A stretch of 64,000 nucleotides of DNA. It comes from an uncultured Acidimicrobiia bacterium. GTDB lineage: Bacteria > Actinomycetota > Acidimicrobiia > Spongiisociales > Spongiisociaceae. Below are positions 2,794 through 39,117 of this stretch, piece by piece. The stretch is from the NCBI GenBank assembly GCA_958295745.1, contig OY282370.1, positions 372,001 through 436,000 of the forward strand, given 5' to 3'. The stretch's first letter is position 1; every line of letters starts with the position of its first letter. The position numbers and the translations under genes were made by a program. The notes below the pieces were generated by a model, which saw only the letters and a list, made by a program, of their open reading frames with translations, searched no databases and was not told the origin of the DNA.

Positions 2794-3774
2794 TCAACCA
2801 TCCCCTGGCCGACCGCCGGGTTCGCGGAAGTCCTCCGCTCGTCTGCGCCGGTCTGATTCGAGTTTCATCAGCTCGCGATCGCGCCACAGCACGTGGTGTT
2901 CCCACCGGGCTGACGGGAACCTCGACTCGAGGTCTTCCACCGCCCGCCGGATCGCCTCGGCGGTCCACGGATCCTCCGAGCCGCGCTCGAGGCCGATGCG
3001 GGCGTACACCGAGCCGATCGACCGCGCGTGCGCCCGGATCCCGCCGCGGGTATTCAGCTCGGCGGCGGCGAAGGGGCCGACGACGGACCACCGGCGGCCC
3101 AACCCTCCGGTGACCACCCGATCCAGATCCCCCGCAGTTACGACTCCGTCCCTCACCAGGCACAAAGCTTCCCGCAGCAGCGCGCCTTGGAGCCGGTTGA
3201 ACACGAGACCCTCGATCTCGCTGCGGACCATCACCGGCACCATGCCGACCATCGACATCAGGCGGACGACCGACTCGACCGCGGCCGGATCCGTGAACGG
3301 GGCGGGGGCCAACTCGACCACCTCCAGCAGGTAAGGGGGGTTGGCGGGATGCGCCAGCAGGCACCGGCCGCGCCCGGGAACACCCGCGGCGATATCGGAG
3401 ATCGTCATGGTGGACGAGGAGCTGGCGAGGGTGGTTCCAGCATCGGCCAGAGAGTCGAGCCGCCTGAAGAGGTCCGCCTTCAAGTCGAGTAATTCCGGAG
3501 CGCACTCCTGGACATGTGCGGCGCCATCGACCGCCTCGGCCAGGCCGCCGCCGACGGCCACCCGGCCCGCCGCGGCGTCGGGATCCTCGTCCAGCAGACC
3601 GTGGGCCTCCAGCTCGAGCAACCGCCGATGTATCTCCGAGGGCAGGATCGAGCGTCGATCGGCGTCGGGTTCGTAAACCGTCGTCTCGAGGCCCGCCCGG
3701 GCGAAGACGATCGCCCATCCGACCCCGATCGAGCCTCCCCCGACCACCCCGACCTTAGGAGGATCGATCAGCAC
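2794..3774 (-). CDS. 3-hydroxyacyl-CoA dehydrogenase family protein (lambda-crystallin-like)
   Basis: 326 residues with an N-terminal NAD-binding Rossmann fold (VGVVGGGSIGVGWAIVFARAG), the middle motif ECAPELLDLKADLF, ASSSSTMTISDI and LLAHPANPPYLLEVVELAP, then the C-terminal helical domain with the family motif FNRLQGALLREALCLV. Length and motif order fit the single-unit 3-hydroxyacyl-CoA or L-gulonate 3-dehydrogenase (lambda-crystallin) group rather than the FadB fusion. It lies just downstream of the DapA-family gene on the same strand (27 bp gap), so both probably serve one catabolic route. The true substrate is unknown. Confidence 0.85.
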   Translation of the reverse strand: MLIDPPKVGVVGGGSIGVGWAIVFARAGLETTVYEPDADRRSILPSEIHRRLLELEAHGLLDEDPDAAAGRVAVGGGLAEAVDGAAHVQECAPELLDLKADLFRRLDSLADAGTTLASSSSTMTISDIAAGVPGRGRCLLAHPANPPYLLEVVELAPAPFTDPAAVESVVRLMSMVGMVPVMVRSEIEGLVFNRLQGALLREALCLVRDGVVTAGDLDRVVTGGLGRRWSVVGPFAAAELNTRGGIRAHARSIGSVYARIGLERGSEDPWTAEAIRRAVEDLESRFPSARWEHHVLWRDRELMKLESDRRRRAEDFREPGGRPGDG

Positions 3775-4835: not shown

Positions 4836-6581
4836 TCAGGCATCGGGCAGTACCACCCCGGCCACCTCTGCGATCTCTACCGGCCGGACCGGGGCTTGGG
4901 GGGCGAAACCCGAGAACTCATCCGGAGGGGCGCCGCCCGCCTCGGCGGACAAAGCCAGGATCGAAGGGCTGCAGTACCGCCCCTGGCACTTCCCCATCCC
5001 CGCCCTGGTCAACCGTTTCACGGCGCCCGCCGACACGGCCCCGTCCGAGATCGAACCGCGCAGCTCCCCCAGGGAAACAGACTCACACCGGCAGACCACG
5101 GTGTCGTCGTCCGCCAGCTGTGTGGTCAGCGGACGCGCCTCGTACAGACGGCGGAGGGCGCCCTGGAACCTCAGATGGCGCCGCAGCGGCTTCTCCTCCC
5201 GGCGCATGAGGAATGCGGCCCGATCCGTGGACACCGCCCCCAGATCGGCCAGCACCTCGGCGCCCGCCATGGCGCCCGAGGCCTGAGCGGCATGGGCGCC
5301 GTCGACGCCTCCGGCGTCGCCCACCACCCAGACCGTATCGATCGAGGTCCGGCCGGTGCGGGTGCGGGTGGTGACCAAACTCCCCGACCATGGATCGATA
5401 TGGTGCCCGCAGCCCAGCGCCCTCGGTATCTCGTTGGCGGGTACGAACCCGTAGCCGAGACAGACCGCGTCGGCCGCCATCTCCCGCTCGGCACCCGGAA
5501 CGCGGTTGCCCGCCGGATCGAGGGACGCCACCACGGCGGATTCCACCCTCCCGGCGCCCCGTATCTCGACGACGGAGCTGCGGTCGAGAACAGGGATACG
5601 GGCCCGGGCCAGGGCCGCCCGGTAGGAAAAACCCCTGGCTGCCAGCTCGGGTGCCGAGAGGAGCATGGAGGCGCCGGACGACAGGTTGGTCCACCATCTC
5701 AGGTCGGCCTGCTCGACCAGGGCCGCAACCACCACACCGGCCCGCACCAGCTCGGCGGCCACCTGCATGTTCAGCGGGCCGTTGCCCGACAGCAGCACCC
5801 TCTCCCCGGGCGCCACCTGGCTGGAACGGAGAAGGGTCTGGGCGGCGCCGGCGGTCATCACACCCGGAAGGGTCCATCCGGGAATCGGCACCCCCCGCTC
5901 GTGCGCTCCGGTGGCCAGCACCAGACGCCGGGGCCGGAGAACCCACGAACGCCCGCCGCCGCGGGCTGCCAGCAGATCGGGGCGGAACGCCCCCCAGACG
6001 GTGGCGTTGTCGATGACCGTGACCCCGGCCTCCATCACTCTCGCCGCGAGCGCCCGCCCGGCCCGGTACTGGCCGTCGAGTCCGGCCTCGTCGATCTCCC
6101 GCGCCGGACCGGGCTGCTTGAAGAACTGTCCGCCGAGCTTGGACCGCTCGTCCAGGAGAACGACGTCCACTCCCGACTCGGCGATCGCGGCCGCCGCCGA
6201 GAGACCGGCCGGCCCTCCCCCCACGACGAGGACGGAAGGAGCGAGCTCCCTGGTCTCCGGGAACGCCGGGTCGGATCCGGACGCGCCGGGCGGCGCCGGG
6301 TCGGCCGGCTGCCTCCTGACTACCATGCCGTCCTCGGCCTCGACCATGCAGGCGAGACGCCCCGGCCGTCCGTCGACCTCCACGGCGCATTCGTGGCAGG
6401 CGCCCATACCGCAGAAGACCCCCCGGCGGCTTCCGTCCTCTGCATCCCGCAGGGCAAGGCGGCCCGCGTCGATCAGTGCGGCCGCCAGGGTGTCCCCCGC
6501 CCCCGCCTCTACGGCCCGGCCTTCGTAGACGACCCGGAGCGTCCCGTCCGGTCGTCCGACACCCGGCACCGCGGCGCGCAC
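4836..6581 (-). CDS. FAD-dependent oxidoreductase with N-terminal 2Fe-2S and C-terminal BFD-like domain
   Basis: 581 residues, GTG start. An N-terminal ferredoxin-like 2Fe-2S domain (Cys57, Cys62, Cys65, Cys78, motif CGMGACHEC) is followed by a two-dinucleotide-binding flavoprotein core (VLVVGGGPAGLSAAAAI; LVLATGAHERGVPIPGW; VLLSGNGPLNMQVA; VWVVGDAGGVDGAHAA) and a C-terminal BFD-type cluster domain (VVCRCESVSLGEL, then GKCQGRYCSP). This is the fused alpha/gamma arrangement of sarcosine oxidase alpha, HCN synthase and D-hydroxyproline dehydrogenase relatives. A separate DAO-type beta subunit would be expected, and one exists at 11.3-12.5 kb. It sits 7 bp behind gcvPB in the same operon. Confidence 0.88.
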   Translation of the reverse strand: MRAAVPGVGRPDGTLRVVYEGRAVEAGAGDTLAAALIDAGRLALRDAEDGSRRGVFCGMGACHECAVEVDGRPGRLACMVEAEDGMVVRRQPADPAPPGASGSDPAFPETRELAPSVLVVGGGPAGLSAAAAIAESGVDVVLLDERSKLGGQFFKQPGPAREIDEAGLDGQYRAGRALAARVMEAGVTVIDNATVWGAFRPDLLAARGGGRSWVLRPRRLVLATGAHERGVPIPGWTLPGVMTAGAAQTLLRSSQVAPGERVLLSGNGPLNMQVAAELVRAGVVVAALVEQADLRWWTNLSSGASMLLSAPELAARGFSYRAALARARIPVLDRSSVVEIRGAGRVESAVVASLDPAGNRVPGAEREMAADAVCLGYGFVPANEIPRALGCGHHIDPWSGSLVTTRTRTGRTSIDTVWVVGDAGGVDGAHAAQASGAMAGAEVLADLGAVSTDRAAFLMRREEKPLRRHLRFQGALRRLYEARPLTTQLADDDTVVCRCESVSLGELRGSISDGAVSAGAVKRLTRAGMGKCQGRYCSPSILALSAEAGGAPPDEFSGFAPQAPVRPVEIAEVAGVVLPDA

Positions 6582-33557: not shown

Positions 33558-34315
33558 CCGGACCCCTCCCGGGCGGCCGCGGCGGACGGCGGATAGGTGC
33601 GGTCGAAGAGGCCGGGCGGCAGGCCTTCCAGATAGGAGAGGACATCGCCGAGGTCGGTTACGTCCACGTACTTCATGTGCAGGTCGAAAAGGGCGATCTT
33701 GTGGGACACCTCGCCCCGGTCGAAGACGGCCTCGTGGGGGATGGTCACCCTGAAGTCGTAGGACAGGGCATCGACCGCGCTGGCCCGCACACAGCCGCTG
33801 GTGGTAGTGCCGGTGAGGATTAGCGAATCGGCGCCCATCATGTTCAGGTGGCTGACGAGGGGGGTGCCGAAGAATGCGGAGGGCTTGCGCTTCTCGATGA
33901 ACAGGTCGCCCTCCTTCGGCGCCACCTCGGCCACGATCTCGTTGCCCTTGTGGCCCATGACGTCCACTTCGTCCTCGGCCCGGGTGCTCTTCAGCGACCA
34001 CACGCCCAGATCGAATCCGTCGGGCCGCCGGGGGTTGGTGGTGTAGATGATCGGAAGCCGCTTCCGGCGGGCGGCCTCGAGTATCCGCCGGATGGCGGGG
34101 ATGCCCCGCTCCCAGGCCGCCGGTCCGCAGGAATACCGCCATCTCCTGATCGAGTCGAGGATCGGCTCGGCCCGGTCCCCGCAGAAGTTGTAGTTGACAT
34201 CGATCACCATGACCGCCGGGCGCTCCCCGTATCCGGCCCGCCTGCCCCAACCGGCCTCGGCGAAGACCGTCCGATCGGTTTCGGTGAGAACGTCGTCCCA
34301 GACCGCCACTTTCAA
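33554..34315 (-). CDS. Isochorismatase-family cysteine hydrolase
   Basis: 253 residues, TTG start within a GGGGAGG-TTGA overlap with the upstream stop. Catalytic triad of the family: Asp in AVMVIDVNYNFCGD, Lys in LFIEKRKPSAFFGTPL and nucleophile Cys in LTGTTTSGCVRASAVDAL. The extra N-terminal ~35 residues and the NPRRPDGFDLG segment resemble N-carbamoylsarcosine or maleamate amidohydrolases. It should release ammonia (or CO2 and ammonia) from an amide or carbamoyl group in the same ring-opening pathway as its neighbours. Confidence 0.88.
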   Translation of the reverse strand: MKVAVWDDVLTETDRTVFAEAGWGRRAGYGERPAVMVIDVNYNFCGDRAEPILDSIRRWRYSCGPAAWERGIPAIRRILEAARRKRLPIIYTTNPRRPDGFDLGVWSLKSTRAEDEVDVMGHKGNEIVAEVAPKEGDLFIEKRKPSAFFGTPLVSHLNMMGADSLILTGTTTSGCVRASAVDALSYDFRVTIPHEAVFDRGEVSHKIALFDLHMKYVDVTDLGDVLSYLEGLPPGLFDRTYPPSAAAAREGSG

Positions 34316-35919
34316 CCTCCCCTGACGCCCCTGTATCGGGTGGTCTCGGCAGAGAAACCCGGGCGCACGAAATCGTCGGCCAGCCAGCGGTCGGTGAGGG
34401 CCGCCCGCACCGGGCTGGTGTCGATGACCTGGCGCTTGGGGCGCAGGGAGCGCGGCTGATACCGGCCGCGCGGTTCCCCCACCGGCCGCATCCCCGGCGA
34501 GTCATCGGCCCACTCCGCGCTGACCTCGCCGCGCAGGATGGTCATGACGGGCCAACCGGTGAAGGTGTGGCCTTCCATGATCGACCAGCCCGAACGGGTG
34601 TTGATGTGCTCCTTGCCTACGGTGACCTCCCGTCCGAGGTCGATGATCACGAAGTCGGCGTCGAACCCCGGCAGCAGCGACCCTTTCTTCCCCCACAGGC
34701 CGGAGGTCTTGGCCGGGTTCTCGCTGCTGACCTGCACCGCCCGCTCCAGGCTGATGCGGCCCTTGTTGACGCCCTCGGAGAGAAGCACGGGCAGGAACAG
34801 CTCCACCCGTGAGAACCCGGTGCGGCAATCCCATATGACGGGGTTGTACATCTCTTCGTGGGAGGTAGGCTCCCATCCCACCACGTGGTCGGAGCCGACC
34901 ACGTCCACGATCCCCTCGGCCAGCGCCACCCACAGCGCTTCTATGTTGTCCCGGCGGCGGAGAGGCACGTTGATGCGCCAGCCGTATTCCGGTTCGGCCC
35001 ACAGCCAGGGCGGGCCGGTCTGGGCGTAGAGCTCCAGCCCCTCGGCGCGGGCCCTGGCCACCTCCTCGAAGGAGAGCCTGGTGGTGCAGTGCTGCAGGTA
35101 GAGCGGCACGCGGCCGGGGGTCTGCATGGCGAGGTATGCGTAGGAGCGGATGTGATGCGCCTCCATGAAATCGGGCGACCGGTCCGTCCAGGAACCGAAG
35201 TCGGTCCTGCCTCCGGCGCGGAGCCGTTCCTCGAAGATCCGGCCGATCTCCCAGTTCTCCGGATGGATGTGGACGATTCCCGGGTAGCCGAGGTGCGCCG
35301 TTTCCTCCATGACCATGAACACGGTGCCGTCGTCGATGCCGGTCCCCAGCCCGGCCCGCCGTGAGGGCCAGTTGGTGTCGTCGTCGTCGGACATACCCTT
35401 CATGGAACGGGTCTGGAGGTACAGCTTGAAGGATGTGACCCCGTGCTCCTCGGCGTACTGGGGAATCTCCCGGGCGTGCTGGTCGGTTTCGACCATGTAG
35501 GTCAGGTAGGCGTCTACGTGGCTGTGCTCGTTTATGACATCCCGCCCCGAGGGGAAGGACTCGTTGAAGGAGACCACATCGGCCCTGGCCACCACCTCTT
35601 TGAACGGTTTGGTTCCGAGGCGGGTGGTCGGGGCCTGGATGCCCCAGGTGGTGATGCCGGCCGCGGCGGCCGCCCTCGATTCGGTTTTCATGTCGTAGTC
35701 GAAAGGCACGTAGCAGCCGGGATGCGCCTCGGAGTCGATGACGCCGGGCAGCACGTAGTTGCCCTTGGCGTCGATGGTGCGGGCCGCGGCGGGGAGCATC
35801 TCCTCGGTCGCCAGCACCGCCACCTTGCCGTCCTTGACCCCCACCCCCACCCTGTAGCGCCCTCCCCCCAACACCACCGTCCCGTTGATTACCGCCAGAT
35901 CGAGGGGCGCGCCCGCCAT
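34312..35919 (-). CDS. Hydantoinase/dihydroorotase-like amidohydrolase with altered metal motif
   Basis: 535 residues, ATG with CGGAGG. Cyclic-amidohydrolase pattern: YVLPGVIDSEAHPGCY, VTSFKLYLQTRS with the lysine that is carboxylated in this family, IVHIHPENWE, QHCTTRLSFEEVARARAEG, VDVVGSDHVVGW and GSLLPGFDADFVIIDL. Where the canonical enzyme has H-x-H after the first beta strand this protein has Glu64-Ala65-His66, so one metal ligand is changed. First gene of the operon; its promoter region faces the palindromic element of the divergent regulator gene. Confidence 0.86.
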   Translation of the reverse strand: MAGAPLDLAVINGTVVLGGGRYRVGVGVKDGKVAVLATEEMLPAAARTIDAKGNYVLPGVIDSEAHPGCYVPFDYDMKTESRAAAAAGITTWGIQAPTTRLGTKPFKEVVARADVVSFNESFPSGRDVINEHSHVDAYLTYMVETDQHAREIPQYAEEHGVTSFKLYLQTRSMKGMSDDDDTNWPSRRAGLGTGIDDGTVFMVMEETAHLGYPGIVHIHPENWEIGRIFEERLRAGGRTDFGSWTDRSPDFMEAHHIRSYAYLAMQTPGRVPLYLQHCTTRLSFEEVARARAEGLELYAQTGPPWLWAEPEYGWRINVPLRRRDNIEALWVALAEGIVDVVGSDHVVGWEPTSHEEMYNPVIWDCRTGFSRVELFLPVLLSEGVNKGRISLERAVQVSSENPAKTSGLWGKKGSLLPGFDADFVIIDLGREVTVGKEHINTRSGWSIMEGHTFTGWPVMTILRGEVSAEWADDSPGMRPVGEPRGRYQPRSLRPKRQVIDTSPVRAALTDRWLADDFVRPGFSAETTRYRGVRGG

Positions 35920-35998: not shown

Positions 35999-36023
35999 GA
36001 AGGAAGGAAGGAAGGAAGGAAGG
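35999..36023 (+). repeat. (GAAG)6 tetranucleotide microsatellite
   Basis: Six GAAG units plus one G in the divergent intergenic region, 80 bp upstream of the hydantoinase-like start and about 40 bp from the palindromic element. Copy-number changes by slippage would alter promoter spacing but no protein. Confidence 0.95.
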
Positions 36024-36060: not shown

Positions 36061-36132
36061 GAAAGATAACAATATATTTCGCGAATAAAGGCCCGAAACG
36101 CCTATTCTCCAGAAAGATAGTAATATCTTTTC
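36061..36132. promoter_or_regulatory. Left near-palindromic element with two ~20 bp operators
   Basis: A 72 bp AT-rich element. Site 1 (36061-36080) and site 2 (36112-36132) follow the consensus GAAAGATAnnAATATCTTTC, and between them GAATAAAGGC and GCCTATTC form a stem. The reverse complement of the whole element matches the element at 37842-37914 over nearly its full length. It ends 8-20 bp before the possible starts of the regulator gene, so it would cover its promoter. Confidence 0.8.
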
Positions 36133-36139
36133 CGGTCTG

Positions 36140-37786
36140 GTGGACGGAGGCATGAAGACCCTCGGCGATATACCCGGCGAGATGACTGCCGACGAATTCT
36201 GGGGTCTGTTCGGCCGGCGCGAGCACGCCGGGCTGGACTTCAAGCGAGGGGTGTCCAAGGGTCTCCTCGACGCCATCCCGGCCATGGCGATGACCAACGG
36301 CGGGTTGATCGTTCACGGCGTAGAAGACGACCGCTCTATCGTCGGATGCCCGCTCAGCCAGAACACCCAGGACAGGATCCACCGCTTCGCAGCCGAATGC
36401 GATGTCGAAGTTCAGATCAGAGCGGTGATCGTCGACGGCGTGGAGCTCACGATCACCTCGGTGACCGAGGTCCGCGAGCGGATCGTCACCACCCCCGACG
36501 GACGGCTTCTGCGGCGCGTCGGCGACGACTCCCTCCCGCTGCGGGGAGACGCTCTCCGTAGATTCGTGATGGCCCGCTCCGAATATCCCGGCGAGGACGA
36601 GGCCGTCGGACACTTCGACGCAGGTGGCTTCGACCTAGGGCTGGTGAACAAGGCGCTGAAGGCCGACGGCAGAAGACCAATCAAGAGGTCGAGCCTGCCG
36701 CGGGCCCTCGTCGACCTCCGGGTCGCCCGCCCGGCCGATGGAGAATCGGATCCGCAGGTGTTGAGGGCTGCGGCGGTTCTGTTCGCTGCAAACCCCGCGG
36801 AACACATATCAGGAGCGAGGGTGCAGTTCGTGCGCCGCGCCGGGGTCGGCCCCGGTCCGGGACCGACCAGCGCGCGAGCAGAGATAAAGGGACCGCTGCC
36901 CATCGTCGTAGAAGAGTGTCTACATATGATCGCCGATCACACAAGGCAGTTCGAAGCCGTGGTGGGCGTGAGGAGGGAGACTATCCAGGAGTATCCGCGG
37001 GAAGTGCTGCGGGAGGCCGTGGTGAACGCGCTCGCCCACCGGGACTACGGCTTGGCGGGCGCCACCGTCGACATCACGGTTTGGGATGACCGTGTCGAGG
37101 TAACCAGTCCGGGGCCGCTGCCCGGACACATCACGGTGGACAACATGCGAACCGAGCACTACAGCCGCAACCCCCGGATCATGAGCGTGCTCAAGAAGAT
37201 GAGGCTCGTAGAGGAATACGGTGATGGGGTGGACCTCATGATCCGGGAGATGGAATCACGCCTGCTCAAACCGCCCGCCTTCGACGCGAACCAGGATTCC
37301 GTGACCGTCACGCTGCACAACCGCGCTCTGGTAGGTGTGGAGGACCAGATCTGGCTGCAGCTTTTCGCGGACCATACGATGACGGTCGAGGAGCGGCTGG
37401 CCCTGGTAACCGCCCGAGCCGAGGGCTCGGTCACCCCCCGGCGTCTACGCGAGCTGATGATCGGGGTGGATGCGGGCGCGGTCCTGGCCGGAGCGGCCGC
37501 GAAGGGCCTGCTCACCCGGGTCGGCGTCCGGGGCGGCGCCCGCTACGTGCTCTCCGATGAGGTCGTGCTGCGCACCGGCGGCGCCGGCATCCAAGCCCGC
37601 AGCCGCCAACAGCAGACCCTGCTCGACGAGATCGGCCGCCGCGGCAGCATCTCGACCGTGGAAGGCGTCAAGCTCTTGGACAAACCGATGACGGTGGTCC
37701 GGAACCTTCTGAACGATCTCGTGCGGTCGGGGCATGCCCGCGCCGAGGGGCAAACCCGGGCAAGGCGCTACTACCCTGCCGGATGA
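36140..37786 (+). CDS. AlbA_2/COG2865 ATP-binding putative transcriptional regulator
   Basis: 548 residues from GTG 36140 (ATG 36152 is possible). The N-terminal AlbA_2 (Schlafen-like) domain has HAGLDFKRGVSKGLLDAIPA and MTNGGLIVHGVEDD. The middle carries a HATPase_c_4-like domain (VLREAVVNALAHRDYGLAGA, VTSPGPLPGHITVDNMR, RNPRIMSVLKKM, LVEEYGDGVDLM). Tandem winged-helix-like segments follow (~430-548; QTLLDEIGRRGSISTVEGVKLL). Such proteins often regulate their own loci. Two near-identical palindromic elements flank this gene, and the protein is the obvious candidate to bind them. Confidence 0.85.
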   Translation: MDGGMKTLGDIPGEMTADEFWGLFGRREHAGLDFKRGVSKGLLDAIPAMAMTNGGLIVHGVEDDRSIVGCPLSQNTQDRIHRFAAECDVEVQIRAVIVDGVELTITSVTEVRERIVTTPDGRLLRRVGDDSLPLRGDALRRFVMARSEYPGEDEAVGHFDAGGFDLGLVNKALKADGRRPIKRSSLPRALVDLRVARPADGESDPQVLRAAAVLFAANPAEHISGARVQFVRRAGVGPGPGPTSARAEIKGPLPIVVEECLHMIADHTRQFEAVVGVRRETIQEYPREVLREAVVNALAHRDYGLAGATVDITVWDDRVEVTSPGPLPGHITVDNMRTEHYSRNPRIMSVLKKMRLVEEYGDGVDLMIREMESRLLKPPAFDANQDSVTVTLHNRALVGVEDQIWLQLFADHTMTVEERLALVTARAEGSVTPRRLRELMIGVDAGAVLAGAAAKGLLTRVGVRGGARYVLSDEVVLRTGGAGIQARSRQQQTLLDEIGRRGSISTVEGVKLLDKPMTVVRNLLNDLVRSGHARAEGQTRARRYYPAG

Positions 37787-37841
37787 TCCCACCGGTAGCG
37801 GCGGCGGTCGGAGCAACAGTCATCAGGCAACGCCGGCCCCG

Positions 37842-37914
37842 GAAAAAGATATTACAATCTTTCTGCGATAAAGGCCGAAAAGGTCTTTATTACGGAAATA
37901 TAATCTTATCTTTC
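37842..37914. promoter_or_regulatory. Right near-palindromic element with two ~20 bp operators
   Basis: 73 bp counterpart of the element at 36061. Site 3 (37842-37863) and site 4 (37894-37914) flank a stem of ATAAAGGCC and GGTCTTTAT. It lies 99 bp before the deaminase gene, so it could control that gene; alternatively the pair are the ends of a small mobile unit. Confidence 0.8.
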
Positions 37915-38012
37915 TACTCGAACCGAGCCTCGCGGCACCCTTCCCAGGATCGACAGACAAGGCAGGCGGGCCCGCGGTAGGGTGAGTATCAGCCCAAGGA
38001 AGGACAGCACCG

Positions 38013-38603
38013 ATGAACCCGGCCGCTGATATCCCCGCCTCGGTGCGGAGCGAGCTTCTGGACCTGCTCGACGAGGTGAGGAGCCTGCCCGATGAGCGTC
38101 CTGACGATGCTCACTCCCGCATCACCGTGGTGGAGGCCATCGAAACCGGGCTGGAGGGGAACGCCTCCATTGGGGCGCTGATCGCTGACCCGGACGGACG
38201 GGTGGTGTTGAGCGAACGGAACCGTATGTTCTTCCCCCGGTTCCGCAGCGACCTCCATGCCGAGATGACCCTATTGACCAGGTACGAGAACGAACATGCC
38301 CCTAAGGCCGACCTGCGTGGCCATACCCTGGTCACCTCCCTCGAGCCGTGCGAGATGTGCACGATCCGCATCATCAACTCGGGCGTGACCAGCTGCCTGT
38401 ACGTGGCCTCGGACCTGGGGAAGGGGGGCATCACCGGCCCCAACCGGCTCGCTCCGCACTGGGCGCGGCTGGCCGAGCACCAGAACTTCGCGGCCGCCGA
38501 TTGCTCCGACCGCCTGGCGGAGATCAGCCTGGCGGCCTTCGAGGCCACCATCGGGGGGGTGATCCGGAAGCTGATGGCCCGGCGGCTTCTCGAAGGATCG
38601 TAA
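38013..38603 (+). CDS. Cytidine/deoxycytidylate deaminase-family protein
   Basis: 196 residues, ATG with AAGGAAGGA. Zinc motifs of the CDA fold: the His and catalytic Glu in SDLHAEMTLL and the Cys pair in TSLEPCEMCTIRII. Spacing fits the nucleoside or guanine deaminase/TadA-like branch. The C-terminal ~40 residues are helical and unassigned. It may be controlled by the palindromic element upstream. It lies 7 bp ahead of the DUF2165 gene and is probably in an operon with it. Confidence 0.87.
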   Translation: MNPAADIPASVRSELLDLLDEVRSLPDERPDDAHSRITVVEAIETGLEGNASIGALIADPDGRVVLSERNRMFFPRFRSDLHAEMTLLTRYENEHAPKADLRGHTLVTSLEPCEMCTIRIINSGVTSCLYVASDLGKGGITGPNRLAPHWARLAEHQNFAAADCSDRLAEISLAAFEATIGGVIRKLMARRLLEGS

Positions 38604-38610
38604 GAGACCC

Positions 38611-39117
38611 GTGGACGCCGCTGTCCCTGCCGCAGAGATCGTCTTCCGACTGATCCCCCTGCTCCTTCTCCTGGGGACCGCCCTCATGGGCGCCGTCGTC
38701 TGCCTCAACAACATCACCGCCCCTGGTGCGAACCTCGCCTTCGTCCGGCACGTCATGACGATGGACACCACCAACATGGACCCCGGCACCCAATGGCGGG
38801 AGGTGCGGTCGCCGGCCTTGCATCGGGCCGCGTTCATCGCCATGCTCGTGTGCGAGATCGCGGTTACGGTGCTGGGCCTGTTGGGCAGCTATTTCCTGGC
38901 CGTCAACCTCACCGCGGCGGACGGGGCCTGGGAATCAGCCAAGCTGTTCGGCTACCTCACCTTCCTGATGGCCCTAGTCGTGTGGTTCCTGATCATCCAG
39001 GTGGTCGGGGCCGAGTGGTACGTCAGCTGGCAGTCCGAGAAGTGGAACGCCATCCGCGACTCCATCCGCATCAACCTGATCACCATCGCCGGGATAATCA
39101 TCCTCCGCCTCTCCTGA
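38611..39117 (+). CDS. DUF2165-like integral membrane protein
   Basis: 168 residues, GTG start. About four hydrophobic helices: ~10-32, ~73-97, ~110-130 and ~148-165. The motif VCLNNITAPGANLAFVRHVMTMDTT, split across the first loop, and EWYVSWQSEKWNAI match the predicted small membrane proteins of DUF2165. Function unknown. It converges on the phosphotriesterase-like gene. Confidence 0.8.
   Translation: MDAAVPAAEIVFRLIPLLLLLGTALMGAVVCLNNITAPGANLAFVRHVMTMDTTNMDPGTQWREVRSPALHRAAFIAMLVCEIAVTVLGLLGSYFLAVNLTAADGAWESAKLFGYLTFLMALVVWFLIIQVVGAEWYVSWQSEKWNAIRDSIRINLITIAGIIILRLS

Follow-up and report, generated by a model that had tools for sequence, protein, structure and literature searches.

Two matching double-palindrome elements, each of 71 bp plus a few flanking bases, bracket a bacterial Schlafen gene in the 64,000-nt stretch of DNA analysed here (the window), and the question raised by this locus is what these elements do for the gene between them. 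In a repeat search, E1 (36061-36131) and E2 (37844-37914) came out as inverted arms of 71 nt that are 75% complementary and 1712 nt apart. Each contains two ~20-bp palindromes with the core AAGAT-n6-ATCTT, making four half-sites. An earlier note on this DNA had described paired near-palindromic elements with two such palindromes about 52 bp apart; both points hold, and the start-to-start offset is 51 bp in E1 and in E2. At up to three mismatches, the pattern GAAAGATANNAATATCTTTC gives eight strand-matches in the window and none in 100 dinucleotide shuffles of it. Across the 3.3-Mb genome, only these four palindromes appear at up to two mismatches, so that the search for further copies, suggested earlier as a sign of a regulon, found none beyond this locus; a looser core adds two chance-like matches genome-wide, and a reversed-pattern control gives one. 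The description of the left element as the right one reversed stands in part: the two are 75% identical when inverted and 66% when read directly, but the self-complementarity of each single element (62-65%) already accounts for part of the reversed match, which is therefore weak evidence for terminal repeats.

Table 1. Positions of the elements, the gene between them and the adjoining features in the window.
Feature	Position	Strand	Basis or remark
Amidohydrolase, beyond the block; faces the deaminase directly in relatives (empty site)	34312..35919	-	Pfam, locus comparison
E1 outer palindrome GAAAGATAACAATATATTTC	36061..36080	.	Pattern search of window and genome
E1 spacer, oriented, with CGAATAAAGG arm beside the outer palindrome	36081..36111	+	AATAAA side conserved in most copies
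E1 inner palindrome GAAAGATAGTAATATCTTTT, its end 8 bp short of the GTG start codon	36112..36131	.	Placement conserved in orthologues
COG2865-type bacterial Schlafen gene, 548 aa, GTG start (alternative ATG 36152)	36140..37786	+	ORF, Pfam, model
Schlafen AlbA_2 region; E28, D33, D63 aligned to SLFN14 E206, E211, D249	36197..36538	+	Pfam, profile alignment
GHKL-type ATP-binding domain (HATPase_c_4)	37058..37315	+	Pfam
Two C-terminal winged helices, residues ~400-475 and ~483-548	37337..37783	+	Model secondary structure, fold matches (MarR)
E2 first palindrome AAAAGATATTACAATCTTTC	37844..37863	.	Pattern search of window and genome
E2 second palindrome GAAATATAATCTTATCTTTC	37895..37914	.	Pattern search of window and genome
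Weak promoter-like pair upstream of the deaminase, CAGACA-n18-TAGGGT	37954..37983	+	Read by eye
Cytidine/deoxycytidylate-type deaminase, possible second target	38013..38603	+	Pfam
DUF2165 membrane protein, after the deaminase	38611..39117	+	Pfam

A short tandem run of GGAA (window ~35999-36023) lies between the amidohydrolase and E1.

Sequence and a predicted structure indicate that the encoded protein is a bacterial Schlafen, with an AlbA_2 Schlafen core, a GHKL ATP-binding domain and tandem winged helices. Pfam matches are 31.8 bits for SLFN_AlbA_2 (cut-off 25.3) and 81.7 bits for HATPase_c_4, and profile comparison matches SLFN14, SLFN5 and SLFN11. The AlphaFold2 model has a mean pLDDT of 80.5 and a pTM of 0.58, the domain arrangement therefore being uncertain; Foldseek with this model ranked 3LMM first, followed by Schlafen parts and winged-helix proteins such as MarR. 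The AlbA_2 and C-terminal winged-helix segments proposed earlier are thus recovered, the former by Pfam and the latter as two winged helices in the model, and of the label COG2865 ATPase/regulator the ATPase part agrees with HATPase_c_4, while bacterial Schlafen is a better name than plain regulator. PADLOC returned matches only from distant pAgo-type models, via shared domains. The three carboxylates aligned to the catalytic residues E206, E211 and D249 of SLFN14, a candidate RNase site, are all kept in five of eight orthologues; the third is lost in G002 and G001, and two of the three in L013. These three loci retain their putative operators despite the lost carboxylates.

To follow the elements beyond the window, we compared its gene (G000) with orthologues in G014 (76% identical), G002 (74%), G001:C3 (60%), two other MAGs (L013 and L014, both 63%) and a genome of the same class (G701, 54%), together with a frameshifted copy in G009. 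The earlier note had made its proposal depend on conservation of the elements beside orthologues; palindromes, intact or eroded, stand upstream of the gene in all eight. G014, G001:C3, the second G002 element and the deaminase element of G001 all have an offset of 51 bp; it is 52 bp in L014, and 51 and 50 bp between three successive palindromes in G701. Spacing of 51 ± 1 bp is thus maintained at orthologues of 54-63% identity while the element sequence drifts. The outer palindrome of E1 in G002 has a centre two bases shorter, L013 retains one clear palindrome plus a half-site, and G009 has a single clear palindrome upstream of the gene; of its two elements downstream, one is eroded, as is the gene itself. 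The gap from the inner palindrome to the start codon is 2-8 bp in seven orthologues and ~25 bp in G701. The broken L013 orthologue has an in-frame stop near codon 73 (3202-3204), and the broken, frameshifted G009 orthologue occupies 166-1776 of L059.

An order-wide scan of 137 genomes with the model R1 located elements in G000, G014, G009, G002 and G001, which are the genomes of the order with a close orthologue, and marginally in a sixth, G105. R1 was built from those same genomes and its co-occurrence test is partly circular; a simple palindrome search points the same way. The exceptions to site-gene co-occurrence are a gene-less element on G001:C93, the G001 orthologue lying elsewhere, and G105, which is without a close orthologue and whose more distant COG2865 genes do not carry the motif. 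The G105 match (L102, contig C69, ~1425-1573, after nuoN) consists of two tandem element-like copies, in which the palindromes are spaced by 52 bp and recur after 76 bp. Among 395 genomes of the class, the exact paired core occurs only in G001, G002 and G014, and a phylum sample of 396 genomes yielded no further close orthologue. Three viral contigs also contain the exact paired core; they are of 34-39% GC and have no related gene, and these matches were taken as chance. A phage or plasmid origin was likewise set aside, there being no close viral relative and all plasmid and phage matches lying below 60% identity (25-30% among the matches listed).

Paralogues, in which repeats of other sequence have the same placement, argue most strongly for the repeats being operators of their own proteins. 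Three paralogues 31-33% identical to the window protein (L090-L092, in G001, G002 and G008) carry inverted repeats TGACATACTTG / CAAGTATGTCA at a 33-bp offset, with the start codon inside one repeat arm; a further copy is found 141-145 bp upstream in L090 and L091, and in L092 downstream of the gene. An ungapped-dyad scan upstream of the paralogues missed these gapped repeats, which were then found by reading the sequence. In L020 and L021, a 23-bp palindrome (CTACTCTAACAATGTTAGAGTAG in L021) stands just before the start. This pattern is how operators co-evolving with their protein would look. Near a likely gene start in G105 (L107, contig C38), two and a bit copies of a ~90-bp AT-rich direct repeat (GCGAAATAATGGAACAACC...) lie directly upstream of a 29%-identical COG2865 gene, as a candidate operator of yet another clade.

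We propose that the elements are probably operators of the Schlafen protein encoded between them, and that this protein most likely binds the start-codon element to control its own gene. Such operators and self-control had been suggested earlier, and the comparison supports them well through the conserved elements with spacing kept as their sequence drifts along with the protein, the start-codon placement, the restriction of elements within the order to five orthologue genomes plus one marginal match, the joint erosion in G009, and paralogues that each have an unrelated repeat over their own start codon and a second copy nearby; the winged helices in the predicted model also fit. Against it stand the G105 copies without a close orthologue, the partial circularity of the R1 test, a second copy whose neighbour differs between genomes, and the description of related proteins as effectors (PMC12839542) or as growth-arrest factors (TrlG, PMC7554251) and not as repressors. 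In the mechanism that we envisage, the winged helices would bind the palindromes as dimers, nearly on one face of the helix (51 bp = 4.9 turns). The promoter would have to overlap or adjoin the inner palindrome, since the gap to the start codon is too short for a leader that includes a ribosome-binding site, and occupancy of the element would shut off this promoter (autorepression) until the protein is released by ATP or by a stress or phage signal acting on its GHKL or Schlafen domain. The second copy could raise the local concentration, permit a repression loop, or extend this control to a neighbour, in the window the deaminase-DUF2165 pair.

In G000 and G002, that second copy lies downstream of the gene, ahead of the deaminase; in G014, it is found 316 bp upstream, ahead of a divergent PIG-L deacetylase, and in G009 downstream, ahead of glpD; in L013, L014 and G001:C3, only upstream elements were seen. 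On G001:C93, the deaminase element is retained, the gene is gone from the locus and a single palindrome remains on the far side. The deaminase elements of G001 and G002 are 82% identical compared with 46-51% in their 70-bp flanks, and thus seem constrained. In the window, E2 ends 98 bp short of the deaminase start (ATG, 38013; 99 bp in the earlier note) and ~40 bp upstream of the weak promoter-like pair, a position that would fit activation as well as looping; by eye, and in a gapped alignment that is rough, this pair corresponds to TTGACA-n18-TAGAAC in insert-free relatives. These observations would suit a dedicated metabolic regulator that acts from E2 and serves chiefly to govern the deaminase-DUF2165 operon, the more so as the element is kept in G001 where the locus lost the gene. 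We nevertheless consider such a regulator unlikely: the deaminase of most relatives has neither gene nor element, in G014 and G009 there is no element at the deaminase and the gene is located elsewhere, among different neighbours, and a ~100 bp repeat separates the element from the deaminase in G001. Control of the deaminase through the element, as proposed earlier, is possible in the three genomes that retain it there, but would not be general, because the second copy adjoins other genes in other genomes. Copies of a ~100-bp MITE-like repeat (AGGACGGTGCTGAACAATGACGATTGCTCGG...) occur in L061 (G001:C93) at ~160-262, 1538-1640 and 4920-5025; one repeat of this type separates the G001 element from the deaminase, and L086 has a similar one before pigL.

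The gene and its elements form an accessory block, since the site is empty at two loci in relatives: in genomes of genus g4, the amidohydrolase and deaminase are divergent neighbours with no insert, and in G005, G007, G008, G012 and G013, glpD adjoins pigL where G014 has the block. Such presence and absence, together with relatives in unrelated MAGs that suggest horizontal spread and the inverted look of the window's two copies, is what a single-gene mobile unit would produce if the elements were its terminal inverted repeats, transposition ends recognised by the protein. This second proposal of the earlier note appears quite improbable. Scored with an orientation matrix built from E1 copies alone, the window E2 is ambiguous (54.9 vs 57.5), while the second copies of G002, G009 and G014 score higher in the gene's direction and are thus direct copies, so terminal inverted repeats are not supported. 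Moreover, the second copy is variously upstream, downstream or missing, the genome has no free element copies, domain searches found no transposase-type domain, and the rough gapped alignment of the window's empty site revealed no clear target duplication; a mobile unit also leaves the start-codon placement unexplained. Schlafens bind RNA, and each palindrome could fold into a hairpin, both of which count for the elements acting as RNA or single-strand hairpins (a terminator, an attenuator or a Schlafen substrate) instead of duplex operators. We regard this as highly improbable given that the constant offset, at nearly five helical turns, fits duplex DNA, that E2 lies outside the gene's leader, that the elements co-occur strictly with one protein, and that the paralogues have clade-specific start-codon repeats.

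The operator reading may be extended, tentatively and with considerable doubt, to a single-gene self-repressing Schlafen defence module that combines effector, sensor and repressor in one chain. The winged helices would tether the protein to four half-sites by the start codon of its gene, and an ATP state or phage signal would free it, at once derepressing the gene and releasing an RNase. If this were true, clade-specific start-codon operators would be a general mark of GHKL-wHTH Schlafens. COG2865 proteins are widespread, frequently misnamed RecG-like helicases and poorly understood, and recent work places them as Schlafen RNases adjoining defence loci. A conserved candidate operator of exact spacing offers a defined DNA ligand and a reporter, and with them a testable model of bacterial Schlafen silencing; the start-codon inverted-repeat approach has already yielded distinct candidate operators for another clade.

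GalR and lambda CI, classical repressors that regulate themselves through paired or looped operators, resemble the arrangement proposed here in their palindromic sites at their own promoter, helical-turn spacing and distant second operator, although their protein architecture is unrelated to that of the window protein. In the literature searched, we found no self-operator of the AlbA_2-GHKL-wHTH Schlafen family. The best full-length match to the window protein is 3LMM (DIP2311 of Corynebacterium diphtheriae, a solved structure), which is 18-20% identical and has no known operator or function. COG2865 proteins also occur in "Xre-COG2865", a predicted toxin-antitoxin family (PMC5308263), with a likeness in the accessory, toxin-antitoxin-like setting, and self-control would itself be of that type; no Xre antitoxin gene is adjacent in the window, where the immediate neighbours are the amidohydrolase and the deaminase, and here the DNA-binding and putative RNase parts would share one chain. 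TrlG, from the temperature restriction locus of Photorhabdus, causes conditional growth arrest and shares AlbA_2, HATPase_c_4 and accessory status with the window gene, but its operon has three genes, the others encoding TrlF and, as a distinct protein, the putative regulator TrlR (PMC7554251). Effectors that join a Schlafen RNase, a minimal histidine kinase and a wHTH have been described beside BREX loci in an account that also refers to preprint work on anti-phage defence by bacterial Schlafens (PMC12839542). These effectors and the window protein share the order of Schlafen core, GHKL-type ATPase and C-terminal wHTH, as well as a patchy distribution; unlike them, the gene has no BREX genes noted adjoining it in the loci examined, and it adds putative self-operators, which the passages considered do not mention for the BREX-side effectors.
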